Shown here piece by piece: positions 39,332 to 64,000 of a stretch of 64,000 nucleotides of DNA. A program made the translations under genes and the position numbers. Every line of letters begins with the position of its first letter. Within the stretch, counting starts at the first letter, position 1. The notes beneath the pieces are model-generated. The model did not search any database, was not told where the DNA came from, and saw only the letters and a list, made by a program, of their open reading frames with translations. Source of the DNA: an uncultured Hungatella sp. (GTDB lineage: Bacteria; Bacillota; Clostridia; Lachnospirales; Lachnospiraceae). The DNA is taken from contig CATLBR010000013.1 of assembly GCA_949879795.1 (NCBI GenBank), positions 1-64,000 on the forward strand. The letters run 5' to 3'.

Positions 39332-39402
39332 AGCATATGCCCCATCGCCGTAGGCGATTTAAAATGGGCATATGCTGTTACGTTCACAGGATACCTGTGA
39401 AC
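39332..39402. repeat. Cluster of three palindromes (REP/MITE-like)
   Basis: AGCATATGCCC/GGGCATATGCT (11 bp, 39332-39342 with 39366-39376) encloses ATCGCC/GGCGAT; then GTTCACAG/CTGTGAAC (39382-39389 with 39395-39402). No coding. It precedes cassette 1 and may be a small non-autonomous repeat or a protein-binding site. Confidence 0.6.
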
Positions 39403-39446
39403 AGCAACACCAGAAGGGAAAAAGGAAAAAAATCTGGAAAAAGTCG

Positions 39447-39640
39447 TAGACTTTTTTTAGTAACATGATATAATAGACATATAATATTTAATAGAAGACT
39501 TTTCAAGATTAAAAAAATGCCGAAATATATAGTGACCATGTATGAAAGAAAATCTTGAAGTGCCTGAAATCAGAGAGCCTGTCGGCAGAGGACTCAAAAG
39601 CTAGAACCCCGGGGCTCGTCTCTCGGGGTTTTTGTGTACA
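39447..39640 (+). promoter_or_regulatory. Promoter plus structured leader RNA with terminator, cassette 1
   Basis: TAGACT (39447-39452), 16-nt spacer, TATAAT with extended TGA (39469-39474). The leader then has helix TTCAAGATT/AATCTTGAA (39502-39510 with 39551-39559); TGCCG (39518-39522) inside that helix's loop can pair with CGGCA (39583-39587) in the loop of the hairpin GAGcCTG..CAG..CTC (39575-39595). It ends in terminator AACCCCG/CGGGGTT plus T5 (39605-39634). The ligase gene starts 37 nt later. A homologous leader precedes cassette 2. Confidence 0.75.
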
Positions 39641-39671
39641 GTCTTTTTGGATTCACAGGGGGGAAGGGGAG

Positions 39672-41048
39672 ATGATCGGAAGAATAGTAACCATGTTTGA
39701 CTGGGTGCTGAACCACTTCATTATGGTTATTTTATTTATATCTCTTTTTATCCTGACTCTGATTGGCTCGGCGGATGCATATACTATCAGTATAGTGGCA
39801 ATTCTTTTATGTGTGGTGGGCCTGACCGAGAAAGATATTTTGGTGGATCCATGGATATTCTTTCCACTTGTTGTGTATAGTTTGATTGGCATGATATCTT
39901 CCTACATTATATATGGTGATATAACTCAAGGTTATAGTTTTCTCCATATGATATTTCCGATAGTGTATCTGTTGATAGCCTGTATAGACAACAGGGATCT
40001 CCTATTGCTGAAACGCCTGTGTGTATTATGGGCTGGGATCGTGGCGGCATATGGTATCATCGAGTCTGTACGAGGTGCTGTCATCCGGGGGGGAGGAAGG
40101 AGACTCAGAGGTTTGCTTGGCGGCGCCAATGCTATGGGGATTTTTCTTGTCCTCAGTTGGTTTGCTCTGCTTGATTTGGAACAGGATCAGGAGATGCCAT
40201 CTGGCCTGCGCGTATGTTTTTCTTATATAGAACCGATTTTGCTCATCGCTCTTTCTATGACTTTGTCTATGGGAAGTTTTGTGGCTATGGCAGTGGGAAT
40301 TTTATGGTATTTGATGGAAAGAAGAAAGCAGTGTTCTAAGAAGGATACATATCTATTTGCCTGTATGATGCTGGCAAAGGCCAGTCTGTGTTTTGGGGTT
40401 GGACTGCTCATGTATCTTGCTGCTTCCTGGACCGGTGTGCCGGCAAGCAGTGTATTTATTCTTCTGTACGCAGTGGCAGTTGTAGTCTGCTGGCAGGAAT
40501 TCCGGTGCTTTTTAAATGCCTATCCCCGTATGTCGGCGGTGATAGCAATGTGTGGGATTCTGGCAGCGGTAGTATGTATTGTCATCCGTCCAAGCGCCAT
40601 AGATACATTTACAGAACGTCTGGAAATGATGAGAAACGGACTCGGTTATTTGGGGCGGAATCCTCTTCTGGGTGTGGGCCAATATCGGTGGAGAGTTTTA
40701 AATCTGCATGACAGTGATAAATATTTTAATGTCTGGTATATCCACAACTCCTTACTTCATGTGGGGGTTGAGATGGGATGGATTGCCATCGGTATGCTGC
40801 TGATTATCGTAGTGCGTTTTTTTCAGAAAAAAGGCAAGACATCTAAAGCTGGTTTTCTAGCCTTCTGTTTTCACAATATGATAGATATCGCTTTTCTTTT
40901 TCCGGGGCTTACTGTGTTTGCCATGATGACAGCGGCAGATCCGACTGGCAGAAGAAAAAAAATAAAAGGTTTCATAGTGAAAATGTTTTTTTCGGTGACA
41001 GCTATTATGTTTGTGCAGGAATTTTACAGTAGTTTGTTTGGTGGATAG
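39672..41048 (+). CDS. Wzy/WaaL/PglL-like polytopic membrane ligase, cassette 1
   Basis: 458 residues. Start at ATG of MIGRIVTMFDWVLNHFIMVI after GGAAGGGGAG. About 10-12 membrane segments. O-antigen ligase-family (Wzy_C, PF04932-type) pattern: RGGGRRLRGLLGGANAMGIF in the middle, GRNPLLGVGQYRWRVLNLHD, and the signature WYIHNSLLHVGVEMGW near 390, with the His and Glu typical of this family. Such enzymes join a lipid-linked glycan to an acceptor: lipid A, another glycan or, for PglL, Ser/Thr of proteins. Followed by an amidase fossil and a Cna-B surface protein. More AT-rich than its paralogue in cassette 2. Confidence 0.8.
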   Translation: MIGRIVTMFDWVLNHFIMVILFISLFILTLIGSADAYTISIVAILLCVVGLTEKDILVDPWIFFPLVVYSLIGMISSYIIYGDITQGYSFLHMIFPIVYLLIACIDNRDLLLLKRLCVLWAGIVAAYGIIESVRGAVIRGGGRRLRGLLGGANAMGIFLVLSWFALLDLEQDQEMPSGLRVCFSYIEPILLIALSMTLSMGSFVAMAVGILWYLMERRKQCSKKDTYLFACMMLAKASLCFGVGLLMYLAASWTGVPASSVFILLYAVAVVVCWQEFRCFLNAYPRMSAVIAMCGILAAVVCIVIRPSAIDTFTERLEMMRNGLGYLGRNPLLGVGQYRWRVLNLHDSDKYFNVWYIHNSLLHVGVEMGWIAIGMLLIIVVRFFQKKGKTSKAGFLAFCFHNMIDIAFLFPGLTVFAMMTAADPTGRRKKIKGFIVKMFFSVTAIMFVQEFYSSLFGG

Positions 41049-41058
41049 AGGAAAAGGA

Positions 41059-41181
41059 ATTTGAGAGTGAGCCAAAAAAGAATATTGTCGCATTTGATTT
41101 TTTCTGGCCGGATTGATCATATTTGGAGGGACGTATGGATAGCTTATGCAGATAGTAAATATAAGATTAGAAAATGAATAA
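41059..41181 (+). pseudogene. Fossil of the cassette amidase gene (internal deletion)
   Basis: Aligns to both ends of the cassette-2 amidase. The 5' part, from the AGAGGAAAAG site to CTGGCCGGAT (41061-41112), matches the start through codon ~18 (LLLAG), including the AAAAAAG run. After a gap of about 550 bp in the intact gene, TCATATTTGGAGGGACGTATGG (41117-41139) encodes SYLEGRM, matching PYLEGRM, and 41155-41181 encodes VNIRLENE plus stop, matching VNKRLERQ plus stop. Stop codons and no ATG show it is dead. The downstream spacer is also homologous to that of cassette 2. Confidence 0.85.
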
Positions 41182-41263
41182 GAAAATTTATGCGGTAACG
41201 CATTTAATATAGATGAGGAGCAAAAAAGTATTAAAAAATTTGCAGAAGGAGGGAATGCAAATA

Positions 41264-44101
41264 ATGAAGATGGTAGAGAAATGTAAAAGATTATTTTTTT
41301 CGGCCATATTTTTTGTGATGCTTGTATTAGCCACAAAGACAGCAGTGCTTGCGGCAGGTCAGGGCGACCAGAAAAATAGTGCTTCGGGTCCTGATAATGA
41401 ACCTACGGTTCAGTACGCGACTGTAAAGGTCAATAAAGTGTGGGGAGAAGGGACCGACTCATCATTGATAGAGCAAGTTGCAGTCAAGCTATATCAGGAT
41501 GATGAGGAATACAAAGAAGAGATTTTGAACGCTGAAAATAACTGGAGCTGTGAATGGGAGAACATTCCAATAGAAAATGAAGACGGTAATAAGTATGTGT
41601 ACTATATTGAAGAAGTAGAAGTTAGAGACAATGACGGTTCTGATGTCAAATTAGAGTATTCTATTGAGTATTCGTCCGATACTACTACGAACGCTACACT
41701 TTCAAACGCATCGGTTCCTGTTTACATTACGGGGGAGACCAATATTACGATTACGAACACTAGGCCAACCGGAAGTTTGACAGTAAAGAAAGCGTGGGTA
41801 AATGAAGATAAGGCGGAAGATTTAAAAGTTAAAGTTCAGTTATATCAGGATGGCAGCCTGTACACCCCTGGTAACCTTGCTGCTGAAGACGTTACTGTAA
41901 CATTGGAAAAAGATGCATGGAGTTACACATGGTCAGATCTTCCAATAAAAAAAGGAGAAAGTTATTATAAATATAGTGTCAAAGAAGTAGCGGTGGAATC
42001 AGGAGAGGATTCTGAAAACATAATCTTAAATTATGAGACAGAGTATTCAGGAGAGGTTGACTTTGAGAAGAGCGACACAGGTACAATTACAATTACAAAC
42101 ACCAAGCCTACAGACACCAACCCAGTCGGAAGTTTAACAGTAAAGAAAGAGTGGGTAAACGAAAATAAAGCGGAAGATTTAAAAGTTAAAGTTCAGTTAT
42201 ATCAGGATGGCAGCCTATACAACCCTGAGCACCTTGCTGTCGAGGCCGTTACTGTAACATTGGAAAAAGATGCATGGAGTCATACATGGTCAGATCTGCC
42301 AATAAAAAATGGCGAAAGTTATTATAAATATAGCATTCGAGAAGTAGCGGTGGAATCAGGAGACGGAGAGGATTCCAAAGACATAACATTAAATTACAAA
42401 ATAGAGTATTCAGATGAAGTTGACTTTGAGAAGAGAGACACAGGTACAATCACGATTACGAACACCAAACCAACTACTCCGCCGCCCCCAGAGGAAAAGA
42501 CAGGAAGCCTGACAATCCGCAAAGAGATAAGCGGCCCGGAAGAGGCGGGAACGAAAGAATACAAGTTCAAGGTTACAAACGCCAACAGTGAAACTCCGAG
42601 TTTCGACAGAGAAGTGTCTATTACAGGCAGCGGCAGCGCAACCATCAGCGATTTACCCTTCGGGACCTACAAGGTAGAGGAAATCGGCGGCGAGATGGAG
42701 GGCTATATCCACAATGTATCGATCAGCAACAACGGTCAGGCAGTTTTGTCGTCAGGAAGTCTGTCCCAGACAGTCACTGTCACAAATACCTACACAAAAC
42801 CGTCGCCGGAGACAGGAAGCCTGACAATCCGCAAAGAAGTAAGCGGCTCGAATGAGGCAGGAACGAAAGAATACAAGTTCAAGGTTACAAATGCCGACGG
42901 CGAGACTCCGAGTTTCGAGAGAGAAGTGACCATTACGGGAAACGGCAGCGCAACCATCAGCGATTTACCATTCGGAACCTACAAGGTAGAGGAAATCGGC
43001 GGTGAGATTGAAGGTTATAACCACAGTGTAACGATCAGCAATAACGGCCAGGCAGTTTTGTCGTCAGGAAGTTTGTCTCAGACAATCACTGTCACGAATA
43101 CCTACACCAAACCGTCGCCGGAGACAGGAAGCCTGACAATTCGCAAAGAAATAAGCGGCGCAAAAGAGGCGGAAACGAAAGAATACAAGTTCAAGGTTAC
43201 AAACGCCGACAGTGGAACTCCGAGTTTCGACAGAGAAGTGTCTATTACAGGCAGCGGCAGCGCAACCATCAGCGATTTACCTTTCGGAACCTACAAAGTA
43301 GAGGAAATCGGCGGTGAGATCGAAGGTTATATCCTCGATGTATCAGTGAGCAAAAATGGCGAGGCAGTTTTGTCGGCGGAATCATCGGCCCAGACTATTA
43401 CTGTCAGAAATACTTACAATCAGCCGGAAACAGGAAACCTTCTGATTAGAAAGACAGTAACCGGTTCGGCAGGTGAGACCCAGAAAGACTTTACTTTTAC
43501 CATAAATCTGACAGATGCGGAAGGCAACGCACTTCCCGGAACCTACAATTATACTGGCTCCAAGACAGGTACGATCACCAGCGGCGGAACCATTACTTTG
43601 AAGCATAGCGAAAGAGTGACTATCAGCAATCTGCCGAAAGATACCCGTTATCAGGTAGTGGAGAAGGAGGCCAACGCGGACCGCTATGTCACAGCTCTGG
43701 AAGGCGGCACAGGAAGTGATCAGGGAGTCATCAAGGTGGGTGAGACGGCAGTTGTAGGCTATATCAACACCAGAACTTCCAGACGCGGCGGAGGCGGCGG
43801 GAACCCGAATCCAGGAACACCGCCGGTTTTGCCGGAACTGCCGAATTCAGGCGATCCCGACAGTCCAGATACAGTAATTATCGTGGAGGACGGAGTACCT
43901 ACCTCCTATGTAAGAGTACAGGATCCAGAGACAGAAGAGCTTATCTATGTTCCTGAAGAGGATGTTCCGCTGTATGGACTTCCCAAGACCGGAGACAGGA
44001 ATCGGGGAAGATGGCTTGAGATGCTGGCAATCATCTCCATGTTTGGGATCGGAGCTTTGCTGGTTAGTGCGTATCAGAAGAAGAAAAAAGTAGACAGATA
44101 A
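41264..44101 (+). CDS. LPXTG surface protein with Cna-B-type repeats, cassette 1
   Basis: 945 residues. Start at 41264, 10 nt after AAGGAGGG; two other ATGs nearby are less well spaced. Signal peptide to about residue 30 (FFVMLVLATKTAVLAAG). Three Cna-B-like domains follow (about 45-400; SLTVKKAWVNEDKAEDLKVK is repeated), then three near-identical domains of about 105 residues (GSLTIRKEISG, ATISDLPFGTYKVEEIGGE) and a fourth diverged one. Lys in VKK/IRK, Glu in the KVEE/KEV strand and Asn in TITNT are the residues that form isopeptide bonds in this fold. Gly/Pro linker, LPKTGD sorting signal, membrane helix and KKKK end: anchored to the wall by sortase. Sequence includes NATLSNAS. Confidence 0.9.
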   Translation: MKMVEKCKRLFFSAIFFVMLVLATKTAVLAAGQGDQKNSASGPDNEPTVQYATVKVNKVWGEGTDSSLIEQVAVKLYQDDEEYKEEILNAENNWSCEWENIPIENEDGNKYVYYIEEVEVRDNDGSDVKLEYSIEYSSDTTTNATLSNASVPVYITGETNITITNTRPTGSLTVKKAWVNEDKAEDLKVKVQLYQDGSLYTPGNLAAEDVTVTLEKDAWSYTWSDLPIKKGESYYKYSVKEVAVESGEDSENIILNYETEYSGEVDFEKSDTGTITITNTKPTDTNPVGSLTVKKEWVNENKAEDLKVKVQLYQDGSLYNPEHLAVEAVTVTLEKDAWSHTWSDLPIKNGESYYKYSIREVAVESGDGEDSKDITLNYKIEYSDEVDFEKRDTGTITITNTKPTTPPPPEEKTGSLTIRKEISGPEEAGTKEYKFKVTNANSETPSFDREVSITGSGSATISDLPFGTYKVEEIGGEMEGYIHNVSISNNGQAVLSSGSLSQTVTVTNTYTKPSPETGSLTIRKEVSGSNEAGTKEYKFKVTNADGETPSFEREVTITGNGSATISDLPFGTYKVEEIGGEIEGYNHSVTISNNGQAVLSSGSLSQTITVTNTYTKPSPETGSLTIRKEISGAKEAETKEYKFKVTNADSGTPSFDREVSITGSGSATISDLPFGTYKVEEIGGEIEGYILDVSVSKNGEAVLSAESSAQTITVRNTYNQPETGNLLIRKTVTGSAGETQKDFTFTINLTDAEGNALPGTYNYTGSKTGTITSGGTITLKHSERVTISNLPKDTRYQVVEKEANADRYVTALEGGTGSDQGVIKVGETAVVGYINTRTSRRGGGGGNPNPGTPPVLPELPNSGDPDSPDTVIIVEDGVPTSYVRVQDPETEELIYVPEEDVPLYGLPKTGDRNRGRWLEMLAIISMFGIGALLVSAYQKKKKVDR

Positions 44102-44129
44102 GATCAATAGTGTCTCTAAATTAAGTTAT

Positions 44130-44172
44130 GAAAACGGCAGAAGCCCGTAAATACGGGTGTTCTGCCGTTTTC
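44130..44172 (+). terminator. Terminator after the cassette 1 surface protein
   Basis: GAAAACGGCAGAA and TTCTGCCGTTTTC, 13 bp perfect, with inner CCCGT/ACGGG. T-rich on both strands. Confidence 0.9.
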
Positions 44173-44214
44173 ATATGCAGTCTTCGATTTCTCCTGAAAA
44201 TCAGGAAGAAGGCG

Positions 44215-44404
44215 TAGACTTTTTTTTGTGCACATGATATAATGGCTTTACATAATTTTGGGAAAAGATTTTAGATTAATAAAATGCCGTGTTATATTAA
44301 AAGTATTATAAGAGATAGTCTAAAAATATTTGTGATTAAGGGAGCCTGTCGGCAGCGGACTCAAAAGCCAGAACCCCGGGGCTCGGACTCCCGGGGCTTT
44401 TTGA
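44215..44404 (+). promoter_or_regulatory. Promoter plus structured leader RNA with terminator, cassette 2
   Basis: TAGACT (44215-44220), 17-nt spacer, TATAAT preceded by TGA (44238-44243). Helix TTTTAGATTA/TAGTCTAAAA (44269-44278 with 44316-44325) corresponds to the cassette 1 helix with paired substitutions. TGCCG (44285-44289) again faces CGGCA (44350-44354) in a hairpin loop, followed by GACTCAAAAGCCAG and the terminator CCCCGGG/CCCGGGG plus T5 (44373-44402). The ligase gene starts 35 nt later. Confidence 0.75.
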
Positions 44405-44438
44405 ATGGATTTTTCGGCATACAGGGAGGAAAAGTGAA

Positions 44439-45809
44439 ATGATCAGAAAAGTAGAAGCTATGTTTGACTGGATGTTTGATCACTTTACTGTCACTACCTT
44501 GTGTATCGTCCTTTTTATTCTGACTTTAACCGGTGTGGGGGATGTATATACAGTCAGTATGATTGTCATTCTTTTGTGTGCGGTGGGGCTGATGCAGAAA
44601 GAGATTTTGGTGGATCCCTGGATCATAGTTCCGCTTATTGTCTGCAATGTCGCAGGAATGGCGTCTTCCTATGTGGTAAGCGGAACTATAGACGAAGGTT
44701 ACAGTTTCCTCCAGATGATATTTCCTGTTGTCTATCTTTTGATAGTCTGCTTGGACGATGAGGATCTTCTGCGGATGAAATATTTCTGTGTCTTCTGGGC
44801 AGGGTTTGTGGCGGCAAGCGGCATCGTCTGGTCTGTCCGGGGCGCTGTCATCCGGGGAGGGGGAAGGCGTTTGACGGGGGTGCTGGGCGGTCCCAACGCC
44901 TTGGGAATCTTCCTTGTCCTCAGCTGGTTTGCTCTGCTTGATCTGGAAAAGGATCAGGTGAGAATGCCCTCCTGCCTGCGCAAATATTTTTCCTGTATAG
45001 AACCGCTTCTGTTGATTGCTCTTGCCATGACTCTGTCCATGGGAAGTTTTGTGTCCATGGCGGCGGGGATATTGTGGTATTTGGCGGAGAAAAAGAGAAA
45101 GTACTCCTGGAAACATACATATTTATGTGCCTGCGAGATACTGGCAAAGGCCAGCCTGTGTTTCGGAACAGGACTGCTCATATACCTTGCGGCTTCCTGG
45201 ACCGGAGTGCCCGCCAGCAGCGTGATAGTTCTTCTGTACGCGGCGGCGGTTGTGGTCTGTTGGCCTGAATTTCTGCGTTTTTTGAAGGCGTGTCCCGGAA
45301 TATCCGCGGTGATGGCGGCATCCGGGGCTTTGGCAGCTGCCGCTTGTATTGTCATACGTCCAAGCGCCGTAGAGACATTCACGGAGCGTTTGGAAATGAT
45401 GAAAAACGGACTCAGCTATCTGGGGCGCAATCCTCTTTTAGGGGTAGGACCGTACCAGTGGAGGCTTTTGAACCTGCTGGACAGCGATAAATATTTCAAC
45501 ACCTGGCATATCCACAACTCTCTGCTGCATATAGGGGTGGAGTCAGGCTGGATCGCCATGGCGATGCTGGTCATCATCGTAGTACGGGTTTTTAAGAAAA
45601 AAGACAGAACCTCCAAAGCGGGTTTTCTGGCTTTCTGCTGTCACAATATGATCGACACCAGTTTTTTCTTTCTGGGAATCACGATTTTGGCCATGATGAC
45701 AACAGCAGATCCGGCAGGCAGGAAGAAAAGGGTAAGGGGCTCTGTCTTGAAAACTTTTTTTGTGCTGACGGCTGCTGTGTTTGCCTGGAATCTGTACAGC
45801 CAAGGATGA
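44439..45809 (+). CDS. Wzy/WaaL/PglL-like polytopic membrane ligase, cassette 2
   Basis: 456 residues, RBS GGGAGGAAAAG. Close paralogue of the cassette 1 enzyme along its whole length, with the same blocks: RGGGRRLTGVLGGPNALGIF, MTLSMGSFVSMAAGILWYL, IRPSAVETFTERLEMMKNGL, GRNPLLGVGPYQW, and WHIHNSLLHIGVESGW (His and Glu kept). About 11 membrane helices. Expected to act at the outer face of the membrane on an undecaprenyl-linked glycan. Directly followed by the intact amidase (16 nt) and the surface protein, so probably one transcript beyond the leader terminator. Confidence 0.82.
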   Translation: MIRKVEAMFDWMFDHFTVTTLCIVLFILTLTGVGDVYTVSMIVILLCAVGLMQKEILVDPWIIVPLIVCNVAGMASSYVVSGTIDEGYSFLQMIFPVVYLLIVCLDDEDLLRMKYFCVFWAGFVAASGIVWSVRGAVIRGGGRRLTGVLGGPNALGIFLVLSWFALLDLEKDQVRMPSCLRKYFSCIEPLLLIALAMTLSMGSFVSMAAGILWYLAEKKRKYSWKHTYLCACEILAKASLCFGTGLLIYLAASWTGVPASSVIVLLYAAAVVVCWPEFLRFLKACPGISAVMAASGALAAAACIVIRPSAVETFTERLEMMKNGLSYLGRNPLLGVGPYQWRLLNLLDSDKYFNTWHIHNSLLHIGVESGWIAMAMLVIIVVRVFKKKDRTSKAGFLAFCCHNMIDTSFFFLGITILAMMTTADPAGRKKRVRGSVLKTFFVLTAAVFAWNLYSQG

Positions 45810-45824
45810 TAGGAGGAAAAGAAA

Positions 45825-46502
45825 ATGGGGAGTCGGCAAAAAAAGGAATACCGCCGTATATGGCTTCTTCTGGCAGGATTCGTCTTTTGTACCGGGATGG
45901 TCCTGGCTCTTTGTATCCGGTTTTATGTGCGAATGCCGGAGGGGGTGGGCAGAGTTTTGACAGAGTCGGAGAAGATGGAGATTATCAGCAGGAACAGCCC
46001 TATGACAGAGTATGTACATCTGTCTCCTAACGGGGATTTCCCGAGAAAAGATACTATCAAAAAACTGACAATACACCATATGGCGGGAAATCTGACGCTG
46101 GAGGATTTGGGTGAGTCTTTTTCTCAGAGAGACAGGAGAGCATCTGCCAATTACGCTATCGACAGCAAAGGCAGGGTAGCCCTGTATGTGGAGGAGAGCA
46201 ACCGGGCCTGGACTTCCAGCAGCAGGGAGAATGATTCACAGGCGGTGACCATCGAGGTGGCCAACGATGAGGTCGGAGGCGGCTGGCATGTCAGCGATGA
46301 GGCCTATGAGACGCTGATTGATCTGTGTGTGGACATCTGTGAGAGAAACGGAATAGAAAAGCTGTGGTTTACCGGGGATGCCCAGGGAAACCTCACCTTG
46401 CATAAGATGTTTAATGACAAGACTGAATGTCCGGGACCATATCTGGAGGGGCGCATGGAGGATATTGTGAGGGAGGTGAATAAACGTTTGGAAAGACAGT
46501 GA
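45825..46502 (+). CDS. Membrane-anchored N-acetylmuramoyl-L-alanine amidase (Amidase_2/PGRP), cassette 2
   Basis: 225 residues, RBS AGGAGGAAAAG. Single N-terminal membrane helix (about 12-34) with the catalytic domain outside. Amidase_2 features as in T7 lysozyme/PGRPs: zinc ligands His84 or 85 (TIHHMAG), His193 (LTLHKMF) and Cys202 (TECPGPY), plus Tyr110 (ANYAIDSKG) in the active site and AWTSSSRENDSQAVTIEVAN. It should cleave the MurNAc-L-Ala bond, perhaps at the site where a glycan or protein is attached. Expressed between ligase and surface protein. Confidence 0.9.
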   Translation: MGSRQKKEYRRIWLLLAGFVFCTGMVLALCIRFYVRMPEGVGRVLTESEKMEIISRNSPMTEYVHLSPNGDFPRKDTIKKLTIHHMAGNLTLEDLGESFSQRDRRASANYAIDSKGRVALYVEESNRAWTSSSRENDSQAVTIEVANDEVGGGWHVSDEAYETLIDLCVDICERNGIEKLWFTGDAQGNLTLHKMFNDKTECPGPYLEGRMEDIVREVNKRLERQ

Positions 46503-46561: not shown

Positions 46562-49500
46562 ATGAATACCAGGAAAAAAGGCAGGCGGCTATTTTGTACA
46601 CTCATATTGTTTTTCATGACCTTGTTAGCCGCCAGGACAGCAGCTCTCGCAGCCAATCAGCAAAGCCGTGGTTCCTATGATCTGATCATCAAGAAAGAAC
46701 TGGCGGAGGGAAGTCCGGAAGAAGCAAAAAATCAAATTTATGAATTTGAAATTCAGGGAAAAACCGGTGTTAAAAAAGATGACGGCAAGATTGACTGGGA
46801 ACCTATTGACACCATATATGTGCAGATCAAAGGCGGAGAAAGCGAGAAGGTTACCTTTGATGGCCCTACCAGGGTTACAATAACGGAGGTGACTGACAAT
46901 ATTCAGTTTACTGACAAAGAAAAAAACAAGTGGATTATGAGCTCTATAGAAAAACGGGAAGTTAAGGTCAGTGAGCATGGAAAAGATTTTACAATTTATA
47001 TCACCGCCACAGGCAAGGGCGAAGATGAGGATGGCGAGATAAAGATTAAAAGACCCGATGACGCAGCGGCCACAACATATTTTAAGGTTACGGGCAGGGA
47101 GTTTTTGGACGGAGTTCCGGATATAAATCAGAGCGGCGGCCAGGGAAAGGTTATTTATGAGTACGGCCCCACAGAGATTCAGCCTGGGGGGGAGAAAGTA
47201 CTGACAGGCTTGCCGCAGGGGCTTTATACGATTGAAGAACTGAAGGCGCCAGATGGATTTTCAGTCAGGATAGATCCTTCATCCGGGGAAGGGGAGTCTA
47301 AATTCATCTCATCCGAACATTTTGACTGTGTAATAGCGGAGGATGAAGAGGGGATTACGATCGGGAAACTAGAGGGAGATGACGGCGGTCGGGAGTATAC
47401 TTTTCTTATCAAAAATAATAGTGATGACACGGAACAACCGGTAAAAGTAAAGGCTGGAGAGAGTGTATCTATAAAATTGAAACCCGACAGTTATTCAGTA
47501 AGTTCAACGGATGACCAGTATGCAGGATTTGAGCTTACCTATAAAGACAGCAGCACTCTGCTCATAGACCACAATTCGCCTACAGTGACGTTTGTCAACA
47601 CTTTCGCAGAAGGGGAGGGTTCCTACCGGATCATACATGAGTACTATAAGAAAGTGGGAGATCATTATGAGTATGAAGGTTCCAGCGCTGTAAAAACAAT
47701 CAATGGACTGTGGTTAAATGCGGAATATACTGTGTTCAAGAATAACGATGCGGCGCGCAAGTTCGATTTTGGGAAATACAGATACATAACCTTGAAATCA
47801 CCATGGGCATATGCATACGGACATGTTGAACCTATCGCTGCCGATTTGGCTGTTGCGGAGCAGTCTTCTGAGAGAAAGGCAAGTTCAAGCAACGCGGTAA
47901 ACTTTGAAGTTGAAGGGAGTTCCAACAATGCGCTGCGTGAAGAGAAGATAATTGCCGACGATGTGAAGACAGTGTTTGACAAGGAAAAAACTTTCGATGA
48001 AACCGCGTCAGCGACCAGCGGCCAGCAGATCTTTGACGAAAACGGTATTATTGGGCAGGGAATTGGAAAAGGGTCGAAGAATGACGTATATCAGTATCAA
48101 CCAGATACTACTATGGAACATGTTACGACCACATCAGACGGGAGCGAAATCATTATTCTGCGTTATGTACGAGTCCCTGGCGCTTACAAGGTTGTCCATG
48201 AATACTATCGGGAGGAGGCAGACGGCACTCTCACTCTGGAAGGAACCAGTGATATAGGGGAAATGAAAGTTGGTTCTGTGACAGCAGATTTGTACAGGGC
48301 AAGTCCTGCTATGTGGGAGAAAAATTTCGATGGGAGGACCTATAACCACAAAGAAGACGTATATGGAAAAGTCATAATGGAGGAGTCAGATAAGGAAGGC
48401 CTTGGGGAGACGAACACCGTTGACGGACAGACTTATGGAATGGATTCGAAGATGACGGAGGAGATTGGCGGGGTCCTTGCCACGGAAAAGGGAAATCAGA
48501 CCATCATCTTGAGATATGTGAGGGTTCCCGGTTCTTATAATGTGGTCCATGAGTACTATCTGGAAAAGTCAGACGGTACTCTTGAATTGGAAGGAATCAG
48601 TGATTTAAGCTCTAATACCGTAGACACTATCACAAATACACAATATAAGGCTGAAGAGTCTATGAGGAGACCTGATTTTGACGGCAGGACTTACAATTAC
48701 AAAGCAGGTGTTTACGGAAAAATCGTATCGAATGAGTCGGAAGCAGGAAACCTGAAAGATATAAAAACCACCCATGGGCAGACCTACGGAAAAGATCCGA
48801 ATATGTCAGACGGAGTCCTGGCCACGAAGAAGGGAGACCAGGTCATTATCCTGAGATATGTGAGAACCGAGTCAGACACCAGTTCCGTCAGCGGCGCATA
48901 CAACATTGTTCATGAGTACTACCTGGAAAAGTCTGATGGAACTCTGCAGCTGGAAGGAATCAGTGACATAACCAGCAAGACCGTGGATTCCGTGACAGAT
49001 GCATCGTATAAAGCCAATGAGTCCATGTGGAAACCAGCGTATAACAGTCGGACGTACAGCCACAGAGAGGATGCCTACGGAAGAATCGTACCGGATAAGT
49101 CGGAAGGAGAAAACCTGGAAGATATAAAAACCACTGCGGCGGGTGAGACTTACGGGAAAGATCCGAATATGTCAGACGGAGTTCAGGCCACCGAGAAGGG
49201 AGACCAGATCATCATCCTGAGATATGTGAGGACTGAACCGGTCACGGATTCCGCCAGGGGCGCTTACAGTATTGTCCATGAATACTACCTGGAGAAGCAG
49301 GATGGAACTCTGCAGCTGGAAGGAATCAGTGACATAACCTGCAAGACGGTGGATCCCGTGACAGATGCATTGTATAAAGCCGATGAGTCCATGTGGAAAT
49401 TGGTGTATAACAGTCAGACATACAGCCACAGAGAAGATGTCTACGGAAAAATCATACCGGATAAGTCTGAAGGACAAAATCTGGAAGATATAAAAATCAC

Positions 49501-50653
49501 CGCGGCAGGTGAGACTTACGGGAAAGATCCGAATATGACAGGCGGAGTTCAGGCCACCGAGAAGGGGGATCAGATCATCATCCTGAGATATGTGAGGACT
49601 GAACCGGTCACGGATTCCGCCAGGGGCGCTTACAGTATTGTTCATGAGTACTACCTGGAGAAGTCGGACGGAACTCTGCAGCTGGAAGGAATCAGTGAGA
49701 TAACCAGCAAGGCCGTGGATCCCGTGACAGATGCACTGTATAAAGCCAATGAGTCCATGTGGAAACCGGCGTATAACAGTCAGACATACAGCCACAGAGA
49801 AGATGTCTACGGGAAAATCATACCGGATAAGTCTGAAGGACAAAACCTGGAAGATATAAAAAGTACTGCGGCGGGTGAGACTTACGGGAAAGATCCGAAT
49901 ATGTCAGGCGGAGTTCAGGCCACCGAGAAGGGGGATCAGATCATTATCCTGAGGTATGTGAGGACTATTCCCAGCAGACCGTCCAGGCCAGGCGGCGGTA
50001 CCCCTGATACCCCCAATACTCCCGCCTCCGGCTCCTACAAAGTAGTTCATGAGTATTATTTAAGAGACGATACGGGAGATCATTTTGAAGGGAGAAGCGG
50101 TATAGCCACGATAAAGAAAAATCTGGGCGATACCACTTACACGGCAGACGGGGTGAATAAGATCACTGTATGTGAGGCCAATGGAATGAGCTATGTGTAC
50201 GGCACATCTGCCTACGGCCATGTGACCGGGGATACCTCCGGCGACGGACCTACCGTTCAGGTTCCGGGGGACAGTCTGTACAGTATGGACCCGGAGATGA
50301 CATGGGTGAAAGCTACAGAGAACGGAGATCAGATTATTATTCTGAAGTATTACCGCACGCTCAGCCCGGAACAGCCCCAGCGGCCGGAACTCCCGGAGCT
50401 TCCTGATCCCAACTCCCCCGACAGCCCTGATACTGTCACCATCACAGAAGGGGATGTACCTACTACATATGTGAAGGTGTGGAATCCCGAGACAGAGGAG
50501 TTTATGTACATTCCCGAGGACGAGGTACCTCTCTGGGGTCTTCCAAAGACAGGAGACAGAGGCCGTCTGTTCCGGTGGGCTCTGTTGTCAGCAAGTTCCC
50601 TGGGAATCTTTCTGGCGGTGTGGTTCCTGGGATTTCGGAAGAGAGAGGACTGA
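46562..50653 (+). CDS. Large LPXTG surface protein with 122-residue repeats, cassette 2
   Basis: 1363 residues, RBS AAGGGGGAAG. Signal peptide to about 31 (LLAARTAALAA). Region 35-340 resembles the N-terminus of the cassette 3 protein (SYDLIIKKELAEGSPEEAKN; later LTGLPQGLYTIEELKAPDGF, an SpaA/Cna-B motif). From residue about 352 come seven repeats beginning with YxxVHEYY and ending IILRYVR; three consecutive units at 778, 900 and 1022 have an exact 122-residue period. The linker ASSSNAVNFEVEGSSNNAL lies at about 440-460. LPKTGD signal, membrane helix and RKRED tail. Likely a wall-anchored, stalk-like adhesin. Confidence 0.9.
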   Translation: MNTRKKGRRLFCTLILFFMTLLAARTAALAANQQSRGSYDLIIKKELAEGSPEEAKNQIYEFEIQGKTGVKKDDGKIDWEPIDTIYVQIKGGESEKVTFDGPTRVTITEVTDNIQFTDKEKNKWIMSSIEKREVKVSEHGKDFTIYITATGKGEDEDGEIKIKRPDDAAATTYFKVTGREFLDGVPDINQSGGQGKVIYEYGPTEIQPGGEKVLTGLPQGLYTIEELKAPDGFSVRIDPSSGEGESKFISSEHFDCVIAEDEEGITIGKLEGDDGGREYTFLIKNNSDDTEQPVKVKAGESVSIKLKPDSYSVSSTDDQYAGFELTYKDSSTLLIDHNSPTVTFVNTFAEGEGSYRIIHEYYKKVGDHYEYEGSSAVKTINGLWLNAEYTVFKNNDAARKFDFGKYRYITLKSPWAYAYGHVEPIAADLAVAEQSSERKASSSNAVNFEVEGSSNNALREEKIIADDVKTVFDKEKTFDETASATSGQQIFDENGIIGQGIGKGSKNDVYQYQPDTTMEHVTTTSDGSEIIILRYVRVPGAYKVVHEYYREEADGTLTLEGTSDIGEMKVGSVTADLYRASPAMWEKNFDGRTYNHKEDVYGKVIMEESDKEGLGETNTVDGQTYGMDSKMTEEIGGVLATEKGNQTIILRYVRVPGSYNVVHEYYLEKSDGTLELEGISDLSSNTVDTITNTQYKAEESMRRPDFDGRTYNYKAGVYGKIVSNESEAGNLKDIKTTHGQTYGKDPNMSDGVLATKKGDQVIILRYVRTESDTSSVSGAYNIVHEYYLEKSDGTLQLEGISDITSKTVDSVTDASYKANESMWKPAYNSRTYSHREDAYGRIVPDKSEGENLEDIKTTAAGETYGKDPNMSDGVQATEKGDQIIILRYVRTEPVTDSARGAYSIVHEYYLEKQDGTLQLEGISDITCKTVDPVTDALYKADESMWKLVYNSQTYSHREDVYGKIIPDKSEGQNLEDIKITAAGETYGKDPNMTGGVQATEKGDQIIILRYVRTEPVTDSARGAYSIVHEYYLEKSDGTLQLEGISEITSKAVDPVTDALYKANESMWKPAYNSQTYSHREDVYGKIIPDKSEGQNLEDIKSTAAGETYGKDPNMSGGVQATEKGDQIIILRYVRTIPSRPSRPGGGTPDTPNTPASGSYKVVHEYYLRDDTGDHFEGRSGIATIKKNLGDTTYTADGVNKITVCEANGMSYVYGTSAYGHVTGDTSGDGPTVQVPGDSLYSMDPEMTWVKATENGDQIIILKYYRTLSPEQPQRPELPELPDPNSPDSPDTVTITEGDVPTTYVKVWNPETEEFMYIPEDEVPLWGLPKTGDRGRLFRWALLSASSLGIFLAVWFLGFRKRED
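48893..49990 (+). repeat. Tandem 366-bp repeat within the cassette 2 surface gene
   Basis: Three units starting at 48893, 49259 and 49625 are highly similar at DNA level (for example the blocks encoding VHEYYLEK, YGKDPNM and TEKGDQIIILRYVRTEP). Older, diverged units lie upstream at about 48178 and 48529. Near identity implies recent duplication or gene conversion and a potential for length variation. Confidence 0.9.
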
Positions 50654-57206: not shown

Positions 57207-57213
57207 TTTGTTC

Positions 57214-57242
57214 TTTACGGGAAAAGTGGGACATGTTATACT
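57214..57242 (+). promoter_or_regulatory. Promoter of the PurF-like gene
   Basis: TTTACG (57214-57219), 17-nt spacer, TATACT (57237-57242), 39 nt before the start codon. Independent transcription from lon-yihA is likely. No purine riboswitch is visible. Confidence 0.6.
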
Positions 57243-57280
57243 AACGTTGTTTTTATACAAAGCCGAAAAGGAGAAATCAT

Positions 57281-58696: not shown

Positions 58697-58703
58697 GGAT
58701 GGC

Positions 58704-58745
58704 GGAAGGCTTCGGGGGGAGGGCTGCCCGAGGCCTTCCTGCTTA
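58704..58745 (+). terminator. Terminator hairpin after the PurF-like gene
   Basis: GGAAGGCTTCGGG pairs with CCCGAGGCCTTCC (13 bp, one G-U). A second GAAGCCTTCC block follows at about 58747 and can form an alternative stem. Confidence 0.7.
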
Positions 58746-58798
58746 TGAAGCCTTCCTGCTTTTGCCGGAGGCACGTTTGCGGCCAGGTTCCAAAATTT

Positions 58799-59797
58799 TT
58801 AATAAATCCCTCCTGTATCGTCCAACGCTGGGGCTGTATCCAGGGTTTTGCTTTGCTGTTCCTCCAAATTGTAATTTAATGCCAAATTGTCTTTTATGCG
58901 TTGTAGTATAATGTCTATTCTTTTGATATCTGATACCATATATTTTGTGTCTAACAGGTTTTTAAGGTCATCTTGCTGCTCGGTTGTCAATTTCAATGAC
59001 TGAACAAATGTTACAAGTGCGAAATCAGCCGCCTGTTTGCCTATATAATCTGGCTGTACGCACAGACTGTCTATCAGTATAGATATGCTTGAAAAGGTAT
59101 CTTTGCCATATGATGTGAATGACAGCTGTTGCAGTACTGAAAAAACTTCGATTTTATCGTAATCTAAGTTTAAGTCTGATGTGTATAGTTCCTTAATATA
59201 ATCGTTGCAGTAAGATATAAACAGCGTGTCTATTGACTTTCTGTTTACCACAAAGATATCTCTGCACTTAAAACCAGCTATCTCTAATGGCAATTCCAGC
59301 AAACCTCTCTGAGCGATTACCTTTACCACATATCTGTTTTCATTCTCAACTTTACACAATATGCTATCTGCGAATATCGGCACATACTTACTGTCAGGAT
59401 ATAACTGTATTCTATTTGATTTTGCTATGCCCCTTTTATTATCTTCATGAAATGACACAATAATTTCTTCAAATTGTTTGGTATCCATTTTTATATAGAC
59501 TGATATTTTATATAAATTGTCTATTACACATATAAATGATTTGCCAGGTTCTTGATCTTTTCTTGTTTCTATCATATATGGCTGAAGGTTGGATAGGTAG
59601 GTTTTTATAAATTTTAATGTATCAAACCCGCAGTATTCTATATAATCAAACAAATGCTGGTTTAAGCCGCTTCGATGTGTGCTGGTGTCTAGCGCGATTC
59701 TGTCCAGTTTGGCCAGATCCCGTATTTTTTTACATACCTTTACCATAGAAGTATCTATACCTTTTGACTCGAGCAATTCGTATGTCATATCAGTCAT
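58799..59797 (-). CDS. AT-rich orphan hypothetical protein
   Basis: 332 residues. Start at ATG of MTDMTYELLESKGIDTSMVK, 7 nt after AAAGGAGA on the minus strand; an upstream extension has no site. No signal peptide or membrane helix. Alternating helix and strand patterns (DTLKFIKTYLSNLQPYMIET, KSFICVIDNLYKISVYIKMD, YVVKVIAQRGLLELPLEIAG). I recognise no family. Base composition is clearly more AT-rich than the genes on both sides, with codons such as ATA and TTA common, which points to recent acquisition. It sits between the PurF-like gene and cassette 3, so it may be cargo or a small defence or regulatory gene; no evidence decides. Confidence 0.7.
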   Translation of the reverse strand: MTDMTYELLESKGIDTSMVKVCKKIRDLAKLDRIALDTSTHRSGLNQHLFDYIEYCGFDTLKFIKTYLSNLQPYMIETRKDQEPGKSFICVIDNLYKISVYIKMDTKQFEEIIVSFHEDNKRGIAKSNRIQLYPDSKYVPIFADSILCKVENENRYVVKVIAQRGLLELPLEIAGFKCRDIFVVNRKSIDTLFISYCNDYIKELYTSDLNLDYDKIEVFSVLQQLSFTSYGKDTFSSISILIDSLCVQPDYIGKQAADFALVTFVQSLKLTTEQQDDLKNLLDTKYMVSDIKRIDIILQRIKDNLALNYNLEEQQSKTLDTAPALDDTGGIY

Positions 59798-59979
59798 TGA
59801 TGATCTCCTTTTATTCCAATTTACATGTATATTACGCATCGGTATGTATTCCATAATAACATTTATTCCATGTTTTCTCAATGTTTTCTTTTTCCTTTTG
59901 ATGACACATGCCTGCGGTGGGGATTTGGTTTTCTGTGGAGTGATTATTACCAATAAAATTGGTGATAGCCATATTGATT

Positions 59980-60008
59980 TTGCAAAAAAATTGTGATAAA
60001 GTTATAAA
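59980..60008 (+). promoter_or_regulatory. Promoter of cassette 3
   Basis: TTGCAA (59980-59985), 17-nt spacer, TATAAA (60003-60008), 53 nt before the ligase start. Unlike cassettes 1 and 2, there is no conserved leader RNA or terminator between promoter and gene. Confidence 0.65.
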
Positions 60009-60061
60009 TAATTAGTAAAACAGAGGATAAATCGGACAGTTTGGTAAGGGGGGGATGAAAC

Positions 60062-61447
60062 ATGGCCTGCATGCTGAAACAGAGGCTGGAAGGTCTGATT
60101 GACCACTATGCGGCGCTCTGCCTTGCCCTTGCCCTGGTGGTTCTCTCCTTGATCGGCGTAGGGGATGTCCGCATGGTGGGGCTGGTGGGCTTTCTTCTGT
60201 GTGGAGTAGGCATCACCCAGGATTCTGCCAGGGCGGATCCCTGGGTCTTGTTTCCTCTCATTTTTTATGATTTGGCGGCCATGGCTTCCTCTTATATGGC
60301 TTATGGGAATATAGTGGATGGTTATGGGGCTATGCACGCCCTTTTTCCTGTCATTTACCTGCTGACGGCCTGCCTGGAGGGGGAAGAGTTCCGCCTGGTG
60401 AGGCGCTGCTGTGCTCTCTGGACAGGCGCTTTGGCCGGGGTGGGGATAGGGCGGTTTGTATTCCAGACTGTCACTTCGGGCCGAGTGAACCGGATGGCCG
60501 GGGTGCTGGGCAACTCCAACGCCATGGGGATCTTTCTGGTGTTGGGCTGGTTTGTGGTGATGTACTGCGGGGAGGAAGACAGCGAAGGAAAAGAAGGGAA
60601 CCGGACTTCGCTCCTGCCCCTGCTGGAGCCGGTGCTGCTGATGGCTTTGGCTCTGACCTTGTCCATGGGCAGTTTTTTGGCCATGGCGGCGGGAATCAGC
60701 GTGGTGTTGATGGGGAAAAAGAGGCAGGCATCCTGGGGGGAGGTCTTTTGGCACGGCTGTGGGCTTCTGGCCCGGGCTACCCTGGGGATGGGGACAGGCG
60801 TGCTTATCTATCTGGCCGCTGCCCGCACCAGCGTTCCATGGACATGTGTGTTCCTGCTGGCCTACGGGACAGCATTGACGGTCTATTGGAAGACTTTTTT
60901 GCGTTTTCTGCAGGTGTATCCCCGGGCGGCCCTGGCGCTCTCGGGGCTGGGCATCCTGGTGGCGGGGGCGGCGGTGCTCCTTAGGCCCAGCGCCACAGCC
61001 ACCTTTGCCGAGCGGCTGGAGATGATGGGCAGCGGCCTGAGTTACCTGACAAAGTCCCCGCTTTTCGGGGTGGGGTCCTTCCGGTGGAGGATACTGGATC
61101 TAAATGACGGCGGAAAATATTTCAACACCTGGCATATCCACAACATACCTATCCATATAGGGGTGGAGATGGGGTGGTTTGCCATGGGGATGGCAGTCCT
61201 CACAGGGCTGCGGGGCCTGTGCAAGAAGAAAGCCCCCACTCTGCGGGCAGGCACAGCCGCCTTCCTCTTCCACAATATGATTGACACCAGCTTTTTCTAT
61301 CTGGGGATCACGGCGCTGGCCTTGGCGGCCACGGGTGAGCCGGGAGCGGGAGGAAGGAAAATAGGCGGCGGGGCGGTGAAGGCCGTCTTTTCCCTGTTTG
61401 CCGGGCTGTTTGCTTACAGCCTGTATCACGGCATAAGGTGGAACTAG
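60062..61447 (+). CDS. Wzy/WaaL/PglL-like polytopic membrane ligase, cassette 3
   Basis: 461 residues, preceded by AAGGGGGGG. Same family as cassettes 1 and 2 but more diverged and more GC-rich. Shared blocks: VNRMAGVLGNSNAMGIFLVL, LTLSMGSFLAMAAGI, LRPSATATFAERLEMMGSGL, SPLFGVGSFRWRILDLNDGG, and WHIHNIPIHIGVEMGW with the family His and Glu. About 11 membrane helices. Sits 11 nt before its amidase and shares the operon with the Cna-B-like protein. The GGGRR motif before the central loop is replaced by TSGRVN, a possible acceptor-specific difference. Confidence 0.82.
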   Translation: MACMLKQRLEGLIDHYAALCLALALVVLSLIGVGDVRMVGLVGFLLCGVGITQDSARADPWVLFPLIFYDLAAMASSYMAYGNIVDGYGAMHALFPVIYLLTACLEGEEFRLVRRCCALWTGALAGVGIGRFVFQTVTSGRVNRMAGVLGNSNAMGIFLVLGWFVVMYCGEEDSEGKEGNRTSLLPLLEPVLLMALALTLSMGSFLAMAAGISVVLMGKKRQASWGEVFWHGCGLLARATLGMGTGVLIYLAAARTSVPWTCVFLLAYGTALTVYWKTFLRFLQVYPRAALALSGLGILVAGAAVLLRPSATATFAERLEMMGSGLSYLTKSPLFGVGSFRWRILDLNDGGKYFNTWHIHNIPIHIGVEMGWFAMGMAVLTGLRGLCKKKAPTLRAGTAAFLFHNMIDTSFFYLGITALALAATGEPGAGGRKIGGGAVKAVFSLFAGLFAYSLYHGIRWN

Positions 61448-61458
61448 GAGGGGGAGGG

Positions 61459-62133
61459 ATGAAGAAAGAAGAAAGTGAGTTTCGCTGTATATGGCTGTTG
61501 CTGGCCGGGTTTGGCGCCGCAGCCGTGGCAGTTCTGGTTCTGTGTCTGAGTTTCCGATCCCAGATACCGGATACGGTGGGCCGGGTGCTGACGGAGGCGG
61601 AGAGGGCGGAGGTGATCGGGAGCAACAGCCCGCTTACCGAATATGTCTATCTCTCGCCAAACGCGAATTTTCCCCGTGAGGATGTTATCCGCAAGGTGAC
61701 GATCCACCATATGGCGGGAGACCTGCTCCTGGAGGATCTGGGGGCATCCTTCGCTCAGCGGGATCGGCGGGCCTCTTCCAACTACGCTATTGACAGCCAG
61801 GGGCGAGTGGGACTCTATGTGGAGGAGGCCAATCAGGCCTGGACCTCCAGAAGCCCGGAAAACGACAGTCAGGCGGTGACCATCGAGGTGGCCAATGACG
61901 AGATCGGCGGAGAGTGGCATGTGAGCGACGTGGCCTACGAACGGCTTATCGAGTTGTGCGTGGATATCTGCCGGCGCAACGGGATCGAGAAACTGTGGTA
62001 CACCGGGGACGAGACGGGAAACCTGACTCTGCACAGTATGTTCTACAGCGGAACCGAGTGCCCGGGACCCTATCTGAAAAGTCGGATGGGCGAGATCGCG
62101 GAGGAGGTGAACAGGCGGCTGAACAGAGAATAA
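61459..62133 (+). CDS. Membrane-anchored N-acetylmuramoyl-L-alanine amidase (Amidase_2/PGRP), cassette 3
   Basis: 224 residues, RBS GGAGGGGGAGG. One N-terminal membrane helix (about 11-33). Catalytic residues match cassette 2: TIHHMAG, SNYAIDSQG (Tyr), LTLHSMF (His) and TECPGPY (Cys). Conserved blocks around the active site (AWTSRSPENDSQAVTIEVAN, GGEWHVSDVAYERLIELCVD) show strong selection compared with the diverged N-terminus. Expected wall-side activity on the MurNAc-L-Ala linkage. Followed after 106 nt by the surface protein. Confidence 0.9.
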   Translation: MKKEESEFRCIWLLLAGFGAAAVAVLVLCLSFRSQIPDTVGRVLTEAERAEVIGSNSPLTEYVYLSPNANFPREDVIRKVTIHHMAGDLLLEDLGASFAQRDRRASSNYAIDSQGRVGLYVEEANQAWTSRSPENDSQAVTIEVANDEIGGEWHVSDVAYERLIELCVDICRRNGIEKLWYTGDETGNLTLHSMFYSGTECPGPYLKSRMGEIAEEVNRRLNRE

Positions 62134-62239
62134 AGCGAGAATTTATACAGAGACATAGTTTATGACAGAATATGCCGGATATCCCGGCCGCTGTCTCCGC
62201 CAGAGGCGGCGTGATTGAATTAGGGAGGGATAATAGAAT

Positions 62240-64000
62240 ATGAACGTTAAAAAGAAGAAATACAAACGTATGTATGGTGCCTGCATTCTCTTTTTAGCTG
62301 CGACGCTGACATTAATTACGGTGGTACGGGCTGCGAGCGGTCAGATAGAACGCAGCGGCTCCTACACGTTGATCATCAAGAAGGTTTTTGACAAGAATAC
62401 TCCGCCTGAGGTAGCAGCAGCTGCTGAAAAGCAGGTCTATACCTTCCGGGTGGAGGCGCAGGTCAAATCGGGTGACGGGTATGAGCCCGAAGAAAAAATT
62501 GTTCAAATCCGAGGCGAGGGTGAGGCGGAAGTTGAGTTCAGCAATGCGTTCAAAGTCAGCATCATCGAGCAGACCGACGGAGGCGGATTTGATATCAGTC
62601 CTGGCAATAAGGGCCTGACCGCCGGCAGCTACGTCGGCAGAAGCGTCTTTGGAAGTGTGGGAACTCCAGGTAACTCCGCCGATAAGAGCGCCGGCACTCC
62701 AAGCAACTCCGTCGAGGGCAGCATCAGCACCCCAAGCAATTTCGCCAGCACAAGAGCCGCTGAGGGCAGCGTCGGCACCCCTGTCCATTGGGATGTGGTC
62801 AAAACCGAATGTTTGAGCGAAATGCATGCGGGCGCCGCCCAGGCCACGGTGAATATCAACAAGGACGGAGGCAGAATTGAGGTTACCCGTCCCCAGGGCG
62901 CTCCGACTGCCAGTTTTGAATTCACCGGAAAGCCCCTTCATGAGGAAAACGAGAGCAAATTTAAAGATAGATTTCCGATACGTTTCACTGCTGCCGCCGG
63001 AGAAACGAAGGAGTTTACCGGTTTGCCTCAGGGGGAATATACCATCACCGAACTGCGGGCTCCGGATGGCTTCAGTGTCTTGGTGGGCTCTCGGGAATTT
63101 GATGTGGAGGCCGGCAAAAGCGGCAAGGTCTATATCAACGGCAGCGACAGCAAGCTCTTGATCACAGCGCCGGAACCGGTGAACGATGTTGTGCTGACTC
63201 ATCACTACCGGATCTTAAAGGAGGGCAGAGAATACAGAGAGATCGATGTGTTATCCGGAAGGACCGGCACTGTGGAGCATTTGAATGAAGGGGAGTATAC
63301 CATTGAGGTGTCTGAGACCTATGACGGGTTTAAGGGGTATACGGTATTTTATCCGAGTACGAGCGTAAAAGAGCAGCAAGGAAGAATAAACACCTTAACC
63401 ACAACTGATAATCGGAGTTGGGTATATTTTTCTGTTAATAATGCGAAACAATTGGAATTCTATGGGTATGGACCTTTGTATGATGCCTCGGGTAAAAAAC
63501 TGAATTCTATGGTTACATATCAGCCGAACTATGGCGTGGCAAATGCGGAAAACAAAATAGTCCGAAACGCTGCTAGTAAATCTTCGAGAAAGGGCTGGGA
63601 TACTTATACGCTGAATACTCCCAAAAGGCTTATTCCACCAAATGATAAACTGTATGTTGCAATCTCAAATGTATCAGATGCCAACGCAAAGTCGATTGAT
63701 GTATTTTGGCGGGAATATAAGGACACAAAAAAATCGAAAGAGATTAAAAGGCCCTCATCCGAAGGCGATCGAGTGACAGTTAATGGCCTGACAGAAAACT
63801 ACATCACCATCACCAAACCTGAGGATGAGAATATGCGCGGCGGTGATGTGAAATATTACTACACGATCAAAGACTCTAATGGCAACCTGATTGGAGACTA
63901 TATTGTTACTGATGAGAGCGGAAATGTGATTAATGTTCCCAAGGGTGAGATTTTTCAAGGGAACGCCACCACAGTCACGCTTAGAGCCGGGCAGACGGTG
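62240..64000 (+). CDS. Cna-B/SpaA-like surface protein, cassette 3 (3' partial)
   Basis: Open from ATG at 62240 (GGGAGG 11 nt upstream) to the window edge, 587 codons, no stop. Signal peptide to about 32 (LFLAATLTLITVVRAAS). Begins like the cassette 2 protein (GSYTLIIKKVFDKNTPPEVA). Residues about 138-180 are a Ser/Thr/Pro/Asn-rich stretch with GTPGNS, GTPSNS and STPSNF. Then FTGLPQGEYTITELRAPDGF, a canonical SpaA-type motif, and further beta domains (HHYRILKEGREYREIDVLSG). The sorting signal should lie beyond the window. Confidence 0.88.
   Translation, partial: MNVKKKKYKRMYGACILFLAATLTLITVVRAASGQIERSGSYTLIIKKVFDKNTPPEVAAAAEKQVYTFRVEAQVKSGDGYEPEEKIVQIRGEGEAEVEFSNAFKVSIIEQTDGGGFDISPGNKGLTAGSYVGRSVFGSVGTPGNSADKSAGTPSNSVEGSISTPSNFASTRAAEGSVGTPVHWDVVKTECLSEMHAGAAQATVNINKDGGRIEVTRPQGAPTASFEFTGKPLHEENESKFKDRFPIRFTAAAGETKEFTGLPQGEYTITELRAPDGFSVLVGSREFDVEAGKSGKVYINGSDSKLLITAPEPVNDVVLTHHYRILKEGREYREIDVLSGRTGTVEHLNEGEYTIEVSETYDGFKGYTVFYPSTSVKEQQGRINTLTTTDNRSWVYFSVNNAKQLEFYGYGPLYDASGKKLNSMVTYQPNYGVANAENKIVRNAASKSSRKGWDTYTLNTPKRLIPPNDKLYVAISNVSDANAKSIDVFWREYKDTKKSKEIKRPSSEGDRVTVNGLTENYITITKPEDENMRGGDVKYYYTIKDSNGNLIGDYIVTDESGNVINVPKGEIFQGNATTVTLRAGQTV

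Follow-up and report, generated by a model that had tools for sequence, protein, structure and literature searches.

A 64,000-nucleotide stretch of DNA from an uncultured Hungatella sp. of the family Lachnospiraceae (GenBank assembly GCA_949879795.1, contig CATLBR010000013.1, positions 1 to 64,000; hereafter ‘the window’) carries three copies of a cassette in which a gene for a membrane ligase is followed by one for a peptidoglycan amidase and one for a secreted surface protein (SP1 to SP3). The features are as follows.

39672..41048, forward strand: ligase copy 1, WaaL/Wzy_C fold family, with Tyr in place of H357
41044..41213, forward strand: amidase fossil of copy 1, 5′ and 3′ remnants with the catalytic part deleted
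41213..44101, forward strand: SP1, with Cna_B/DUF5979/DUF7601 repeats and LPKTGD
44439..45809, forward strand: ligase copy 2, with a structure model whose predicted fold matches WaaL
45825..46502, forward strand: membrane-anchored Amidase_2 of copy 2, zinc ligands intact
46562..50653, forward strand: SP2, with SpaA-like and repeated VHEYY...IILRYYR domains and LPKTGD
60062..61447, forward strand: ligase copy 3, a Wzy_C match and paralogue of copy 2
61459..62133, forward strand: membrane-anchored Amidase_2 of copy 3, zinc ligands intact
62240..64000, forward strand: SP3, first 587 amino acids; the gene runs on to contig position 66259

An earlier reading of the sequence alone (the sequence-only reading) had proposed these three sets, and open reading frames (ORFs), Pfam and NCBIfam bear them out, together with the intact zinc ligands in copies 2 and 3, the fossil amidase in copy 1 and the LPXTG signals of SP1 and SP2. 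SP3 is indeed cut by the window edge; on the full contig of 84,580 bases it is 1339 amino acids long and ends in the sorting signal LPKTGDS. The label ‘Cna-B-type’ suits SP1, which matches Pfam Cna_B, but not SP2 and SP3, which have SpaA-like domains and another repeat. The SP1 signal peptide probably starts at 41255, within the ORF that opens at 41213. Gaps in copies 2 and 3 are 11–15 bp between ligase and amidase and 59–106 bp between amidase and surface protein, a spacing that suits a single operon per cassette.

Ligase copies 1 and 3 are paralogues of copy 2 (68% and 47% identical), and the assembly, 65% complete, contains no ligase match beyond these three. Wzy_C was matched in all three; searched as proteins, copy 2 alone passes the Pfam cut-off, while a frame-wise genome search places all three above it. 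Across the nine members of the ligase alignment, PF04932 (Wzy_C) was found in every one at E <= 1 (best E 9.6e-12). The predicted structure of copy 2 matched the WaaL fold by VIA-align structure comparison, although loop 349–359 has a predicted local distance difference test score (pLDDT) below 50; a sequence search of solved structures gave no ligase match at E <= 10. Residues R307, R317, R342, H357, H359 and H364 are invariant across 15 amidase-linked ligases; the catalytic residues of E. coli WaaL are R215, R288 and H338 (PMC3643930). Position 357 is Tyr in copy 1 and His in those 15, and Tyr357 occurs in two of four ligases that lack a linked amidase (copy 1 and locus L040) and in none of 16 that have one, which is no more than suggestive of a tie between His357 and a linked amidase.

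The amidases of copies 2 and 3 match Amidase_2 strongly (E 3e-18 and 2e-16; 66.8 and 61.2 bits against a Pfam cut-off of 26), and H84/H85, Y110, H193, T200 and C202 are identical in 15/15 amidases compared. The copy 1 fossil was recognized by blastn matches of 73 and 100 columns to the copy 2 gene (E 8e-9 and 3e-8), between which ~554 bp, including every zinc ligand, have been deleted. Modelling predicts an N-terminal helix (residues 3–35) followed by the Amidase_2 domain, at a modest pLDDT of 63.4; the seven best solved folds are all amidases of this kind, at low Z (3.6–4.5), headed by Clostridium endolysins and AmpD (Z 4.1–4.5). A solved-structure sequence search with the alignment found nothing at 1e-3, and three single-sequence matches (E >= 0.05) were set aside as looking like chance. 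The amidase matches 109 phage records; with the endolysin of Faecalibacterium phage FP_Epona, its catalytic part shares 59.6% identity across 74% of the query. The cassette amidase thus resembles Amidase_2 phage endolysins in its catalytic domain (at most 59.6% identity) and in keeping the zinc ligands, but differs in its N-terminal membrane helix, its chromosomal location and its place beside a ligase. It is probably a domesticated phage endolysin domain that has gained a membrane anchor. Carriage of the cassette by phages was considered and rejected: 85 IMG/VR stretches fit a short pattern and none encodes a ligase relative. The copy 2 ligase likewise had zero matches among 72,556 plasmid records.

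The arrangement is not strain-specific. With the copy 2 ligase as query, a scan of contigs from GTDB genomes found seven relatives, and in 7/7 the amidase adjoins the ligase. Because our genome searches score only a few top candidates in each genome, their counts are lower bounds. Among 397 genomes of the window’s family, the ligase alignment has matches at E <= 1e-10 in seven: four have full-length ligases (G000, the window’s own genome, and G111, G310 and G392), one (G289, locus L045) has a relic consisting of part of a ligase joined to a sorting signal, and two match over a C-terminal part only. The membrane-anchored amidase (E < 1e-100, a cut picked afterwards in the gap between 1e-105 and 5e-72) occurs in the same 4/397 genomes as the full-length ligase, although in G392 it is unlinked, on a different contig from the ligase. 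A class-level search of 391 genomes found the ligase in four besides the window’s genome, in families f32 and f78. The trio therefore recurs in several families, contrary to what would be expected of an adjacency confined to this strain or of an ordinary capsule ligase.

In all, 20 ligase loci from 15 records or genomes were compared: the three window copies, L005–L011, L038–L040, L042, L043 and L048–L052 (a stop interrupts the L011 ligase, and the L051 ligase begins at the edge of its contig). The amidase lies directly 3′ of the ligase in 16/20, being absent there in copy 1, L039, L040 and L051, and a surface protein adjoins in 14/20 (those of L006 and L009 are cut by contig ends). Across 15 loci, ligase identity rises with amidase identity (r 0.90, equalled in 0/5000 permutations). 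In the cassette genomes compared, linkage to the amidase was confined to this ligase family: seven such genomes contain 32 Wzy_C places at E <= 0.01, and in the 30 whose loci were covered an amidase lies within a flank of ~1.5 kb in 8/12 places of this family versus 0/18 others, 13 of which exceed the Pfam cut-off.

Sorting signals, called by rule as a PxTG-type motif with a hydrophobic stretch and a basic tail, are found in 13 of the 36 genes next to a ligase or amidase versus 2/191 other genes (p 4e-10, 18 loci; such p values are optimistic because the loci are related). Both of the latter are pilin-type sorting-signal genes in L040, itself a ligase locus, a few genes away from its ligase; an earlier, narrower rule skipped them and gave 0/191. 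Every complete surface protein has both a PxTG-type sorting signal, which in L038 occurs only as PRTSD, and, by eye, a signal peptide. In L006, stop codons interrupt the part that encodes the signal peptide. The smallest, from L052, has 151 amino acids with a signal peptide, PKTGD and five repeats of about nine residues containing Asp, Pro, Tyr, Ser, Asn and Glu; a chain of this kind would suit the role of glycan scaffold better than that of adhesin. A sortase gene lies directly 3′ in L043 and upstream in L007, and two are elsewhere in the window’s genome.

SP1 and SP2 have in common only their last ~80 residues (57% identical; the sole blastp match at 1e-3). The surface-protein family, from an alignment of six, is full-length in 3/397 genomes, all of them ligase-positive, with at most two candidates scored per genome. 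The tail was rejected as a cassette-exclusive signal, since it matches at E <= 1e-5 in 16/397 genomes. Strong tail matches with no ligase in view are a 937-residue protein of G111 (L117) and a protein of G264 (L118), a genome that has no ligase match and whose tail piece lies at the end of a contig; because both proteins reach the contig edge upstream, a ligase may yet lie there. The G264 protein (L118 7940–8539) also has an Ala/Ser/Pro/Thr mucin-like stretch as well as its cassette-type tail.

Inverted repeats lie upstream of some ligases. Across 27 loci (490,881 bp) there are nine pairs of score 15 or more with a spacer of 50–400 bp, and four of the nine stand directly upstream of a ligase, that is, in 4/16 upstream regions (those of the ligase loci apart from L009, L039, L040 and L051, the last three of which the 27-locus scan covers).

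L007, 9670–9831: 20-bp arms, one mismatch, between sortase and ligase
L038, 9094–9358: 33 bp, perfect, upstream of ligase
L042, 8625–8757: 19 bp, perfect, upstream of ligase
L043, 2864–3030: 23-bp arms, one mismatch, upstream of ligase

Resolvase genes are immediately upstream in L042 and L043. A strong promoter-like box pair faces the ligase in L038 only; the better one in L042 points away, and none is present in L007. An invertible promoter appears to switch the cassette on and off in some genomes, inversion being what we infer from the repeats observed. The likeness to gut-bacterial invertons, which have been linked to surface genes (PMC11892184), lies in repeats of 19–33 bp, 95–199 bp apart, upstream of an operon, with a resolvase beside two of them; the differences are that the literature found, as excerpted, does not name this ligase–amidase cargo, and that a single orientation was observed here. 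A second pair in L007 (4666–4823), with near-identical arm sequence, stands upstream of a lipoprotein-like gene, and perhaps one recombinase serves several L007 promoters. Another pair (L041 848–1003) lies beside glycosyltransferase genes on the contig of the unlinked G392 amidase, where a phase-variable polysaccharide is possible.

Copies 1 and 2 are located between CYTH and tig. In G111 the same interval has two other genes and no cassette, the G111 cassette being on another contig, and in G114, of the same genus and without a ligase match, a phage-integrase gene (L091 14726–15652) and accessory-looking genes lie upstream of tig. The cassettes are therefore accessory, and the site upstream of tig may, by its gene content, be an integration hot spot. 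A double palindrome 5′ of copy 1 (window 39325–39410) is a dispersed REP-like element; it was rejected as a cassette-specific signal, since it recurs with 99% identity at G000:C1:215191 and, in part, at other places. Upstream of cassette 3, a 384-residue ORF on the minus strand (window 58799–59953) has no NCBIfam match and a weak Pfam one (E 0.012). Just 3′ of SP3 is what we take to be a transposase-like fragment (L004 6768–7436). Rfam at gathering thresholds found no known RNA element upstream of the cassettes; its sole match in the window is a thiamine pyrophosphate riboswitch at 4007–4112.

We hypothesize, giving the idea about an even chance, that the ligase is a dedicated WaaL-fold O-oligosaccharyltransferase (O-OTase) that glycosylates the sortase-anchored protein encoded next to it, while the amidase works in trans on newly made wall. 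From the observed gene content, gene order, conservation, co-occurrence, folds and sorting signals, we infer the following scheme. The ligase would take a lipid-linked glycan, built elsewhere in the cell, and move it onto its own neighbouring surface protein while that protein is at the membrane. The amidase, held at the membrane by one helix, would cut MurNAc-L-Ala bonds in the newest wall, and this cutting would allow the bulky glycoprotein to be placed or later released. One amidase copy per genome would be enough: copy 1 and G392 lack a linked amidase, from which the enzyme probably acts in trans, with the surface protein tending to stay beside the ligase. The sequence-only reading had each cassette glycosylate its own surface protein as a self-contained system. 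The first part keeps support from the predicted WaaL fold and the linked candidate acceptor; ‘self-contained’ lacks support, since the amidase is dispensable in cis, the window cassettes hold no glycan-building genes, and one genus has the ligase–amidase pair without an adjoining surface protein.

The genes for the protein-specific O-OTases TfpO, TfpM and PglS often lie next to those for their substrates (PMC12645811), and pglL homologues adjoin pilin genes in 21 of 31 cases, all in Gram-negative species (PMC3643930); by the same logic, the window ligase would be a dedicated O-OTase. It shares with TfpO/PilO, TfpM and PglS a WaaL/Wzy_C-type enzyme beside a candidate secreted acceptor (PMC12645811; PMC3643930), and differs in being clostridial, in having a sortase substrate rather than a pilin as acceptor candidate, and in including an amidase, which the excerpted text of the cited papers does not name for O-OTase systems. 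Its neighbours also set it apart from the WaaL O-antigen ligase: an amidase and a sortase substrate, not lipopolysaccharide core genes, so that its acceptor must differ from that of WaaL. No description of a system with this composition was recognized in the open-access literature covered by the search, and PMC12355684, in the portion available, names neither an O-antigen ligase nor an oligosaccharyltransferase.

Several observations weigh against this hypothesis. Foldseek returned zero matches to the ligase model at E <= 1e-3, so the WaaL fold match comes from the second look with VIA-align. PglL_A and Wzy_C_2 domains were found in 0/9 ligases at E <= 1, and the TfpM profile matched 1/9 (copy 2), weakly (E 1.4e-4; 21.1 bits versus the NCBIfam equivalog cut-off of 600 bits); the window ligase is thus not assigned to the PglL or TfpM family, but may nevertheless work like a protein-specific O-OTase with a linked substrate. 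The surface-protein bodies are diverse (Cna_B, SpaA-like, FctA, Listeria–Bacteroides repeats, Pro/Thr-rich), and no common sequon was found among them. Classic LPXTG signals, present in five of the 13 signal-bearing proteins, are less telling (5/36 neighbours versus 1/191 others), and six of the 20 loci have no adjoining surface protein (L007, L040, L048, L049, L050 and L051). No inverted repeats of the kind described above stand at any of the three window copies.

Alternatively, the ligase may polymerize or attach a wall or capsular polysaccharide, the amidase making room in the peptidoglycan and the surface protein being a co-regulated passenger. Wzy_C proteins can be polymerases, as with Staphylococcus aureus SscD, listed as a polymerase with an RfaL O-antigen-ligase domain (PMC11841062); in G424, G457 and G575, three genomes that share a genus, recombinase, ligase and amidase occur together with no adjoining surface protein; the unlinked G392 amidase is ~6 kb from a family-2 glycosyltransferase; and in G457, a further point against protein glycosylation, such a glycosyltransferase and another Wzy_C gene are a few genes off. 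A capsule-locus reading was nonetheless set aside for the window, where no glycan genes lie beside the three copies and no glycosyltransferase lies inside them, and the enrichment of sorting signals among neighbours (13/36 versus 2/191) and the lack of an adjoining amidase at all 18 remaining Wzy_C places of the cassette genomes also count against a polysaccharide role, which we consider unlikely.

Less probable again is a variant of protein glycosylation in which the donor is lipid II: the ligase would put a peptidoglycan subunit on the surface protein and the amidase remove the stem peptide, leaving an amino-sugar disaccharide. One WaaL mutant transfers peptidoglycan subunits (PMC4296511), so lipid II could serve as donor, with the amidase as trimming enzyme. 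The fuller form, a portable and partly phase-variable system whose WaaL-fold enzyme adds lipid II subunits to a wall-anchored protein from which a former endolysin strips the stem peptide, is an equally long shot; if true, it would glycosylate surface proteins without dedicated glycan-building genes.

That ligase and amidase form the functional pair, with the amidase or a glycan strand exposed by it as acceptor and the surface proteins secondary, seems the least probable reading: amidase linkage (16/20) slightly exceeds surface-protein linkage (14/20) and the ligase and amidase identities correlate, but any co-inherited pair would give such a correlation, and in copy 1 and L039 the ligase keeps its surface protein although no amidase is linked.

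In the excerpts of the cited papers, WaaL-type protein O-oligosaccharyltransferases are known from Gram-negative bacteria only (PMC12645811; PMC3643930). If our hypothesis of protein glycosylation is true, gut Clostridia would have a dedicated O-OTase, tied to sortase substrates and a lysin-type amidase and belonging to an enzyme family that has a minimal acceptor of its own, the 151-residue protein of L052. The cassette would then offer a testable route to commensal glycoproteins and an example of a phage lysin domain recruited into surface assembly.

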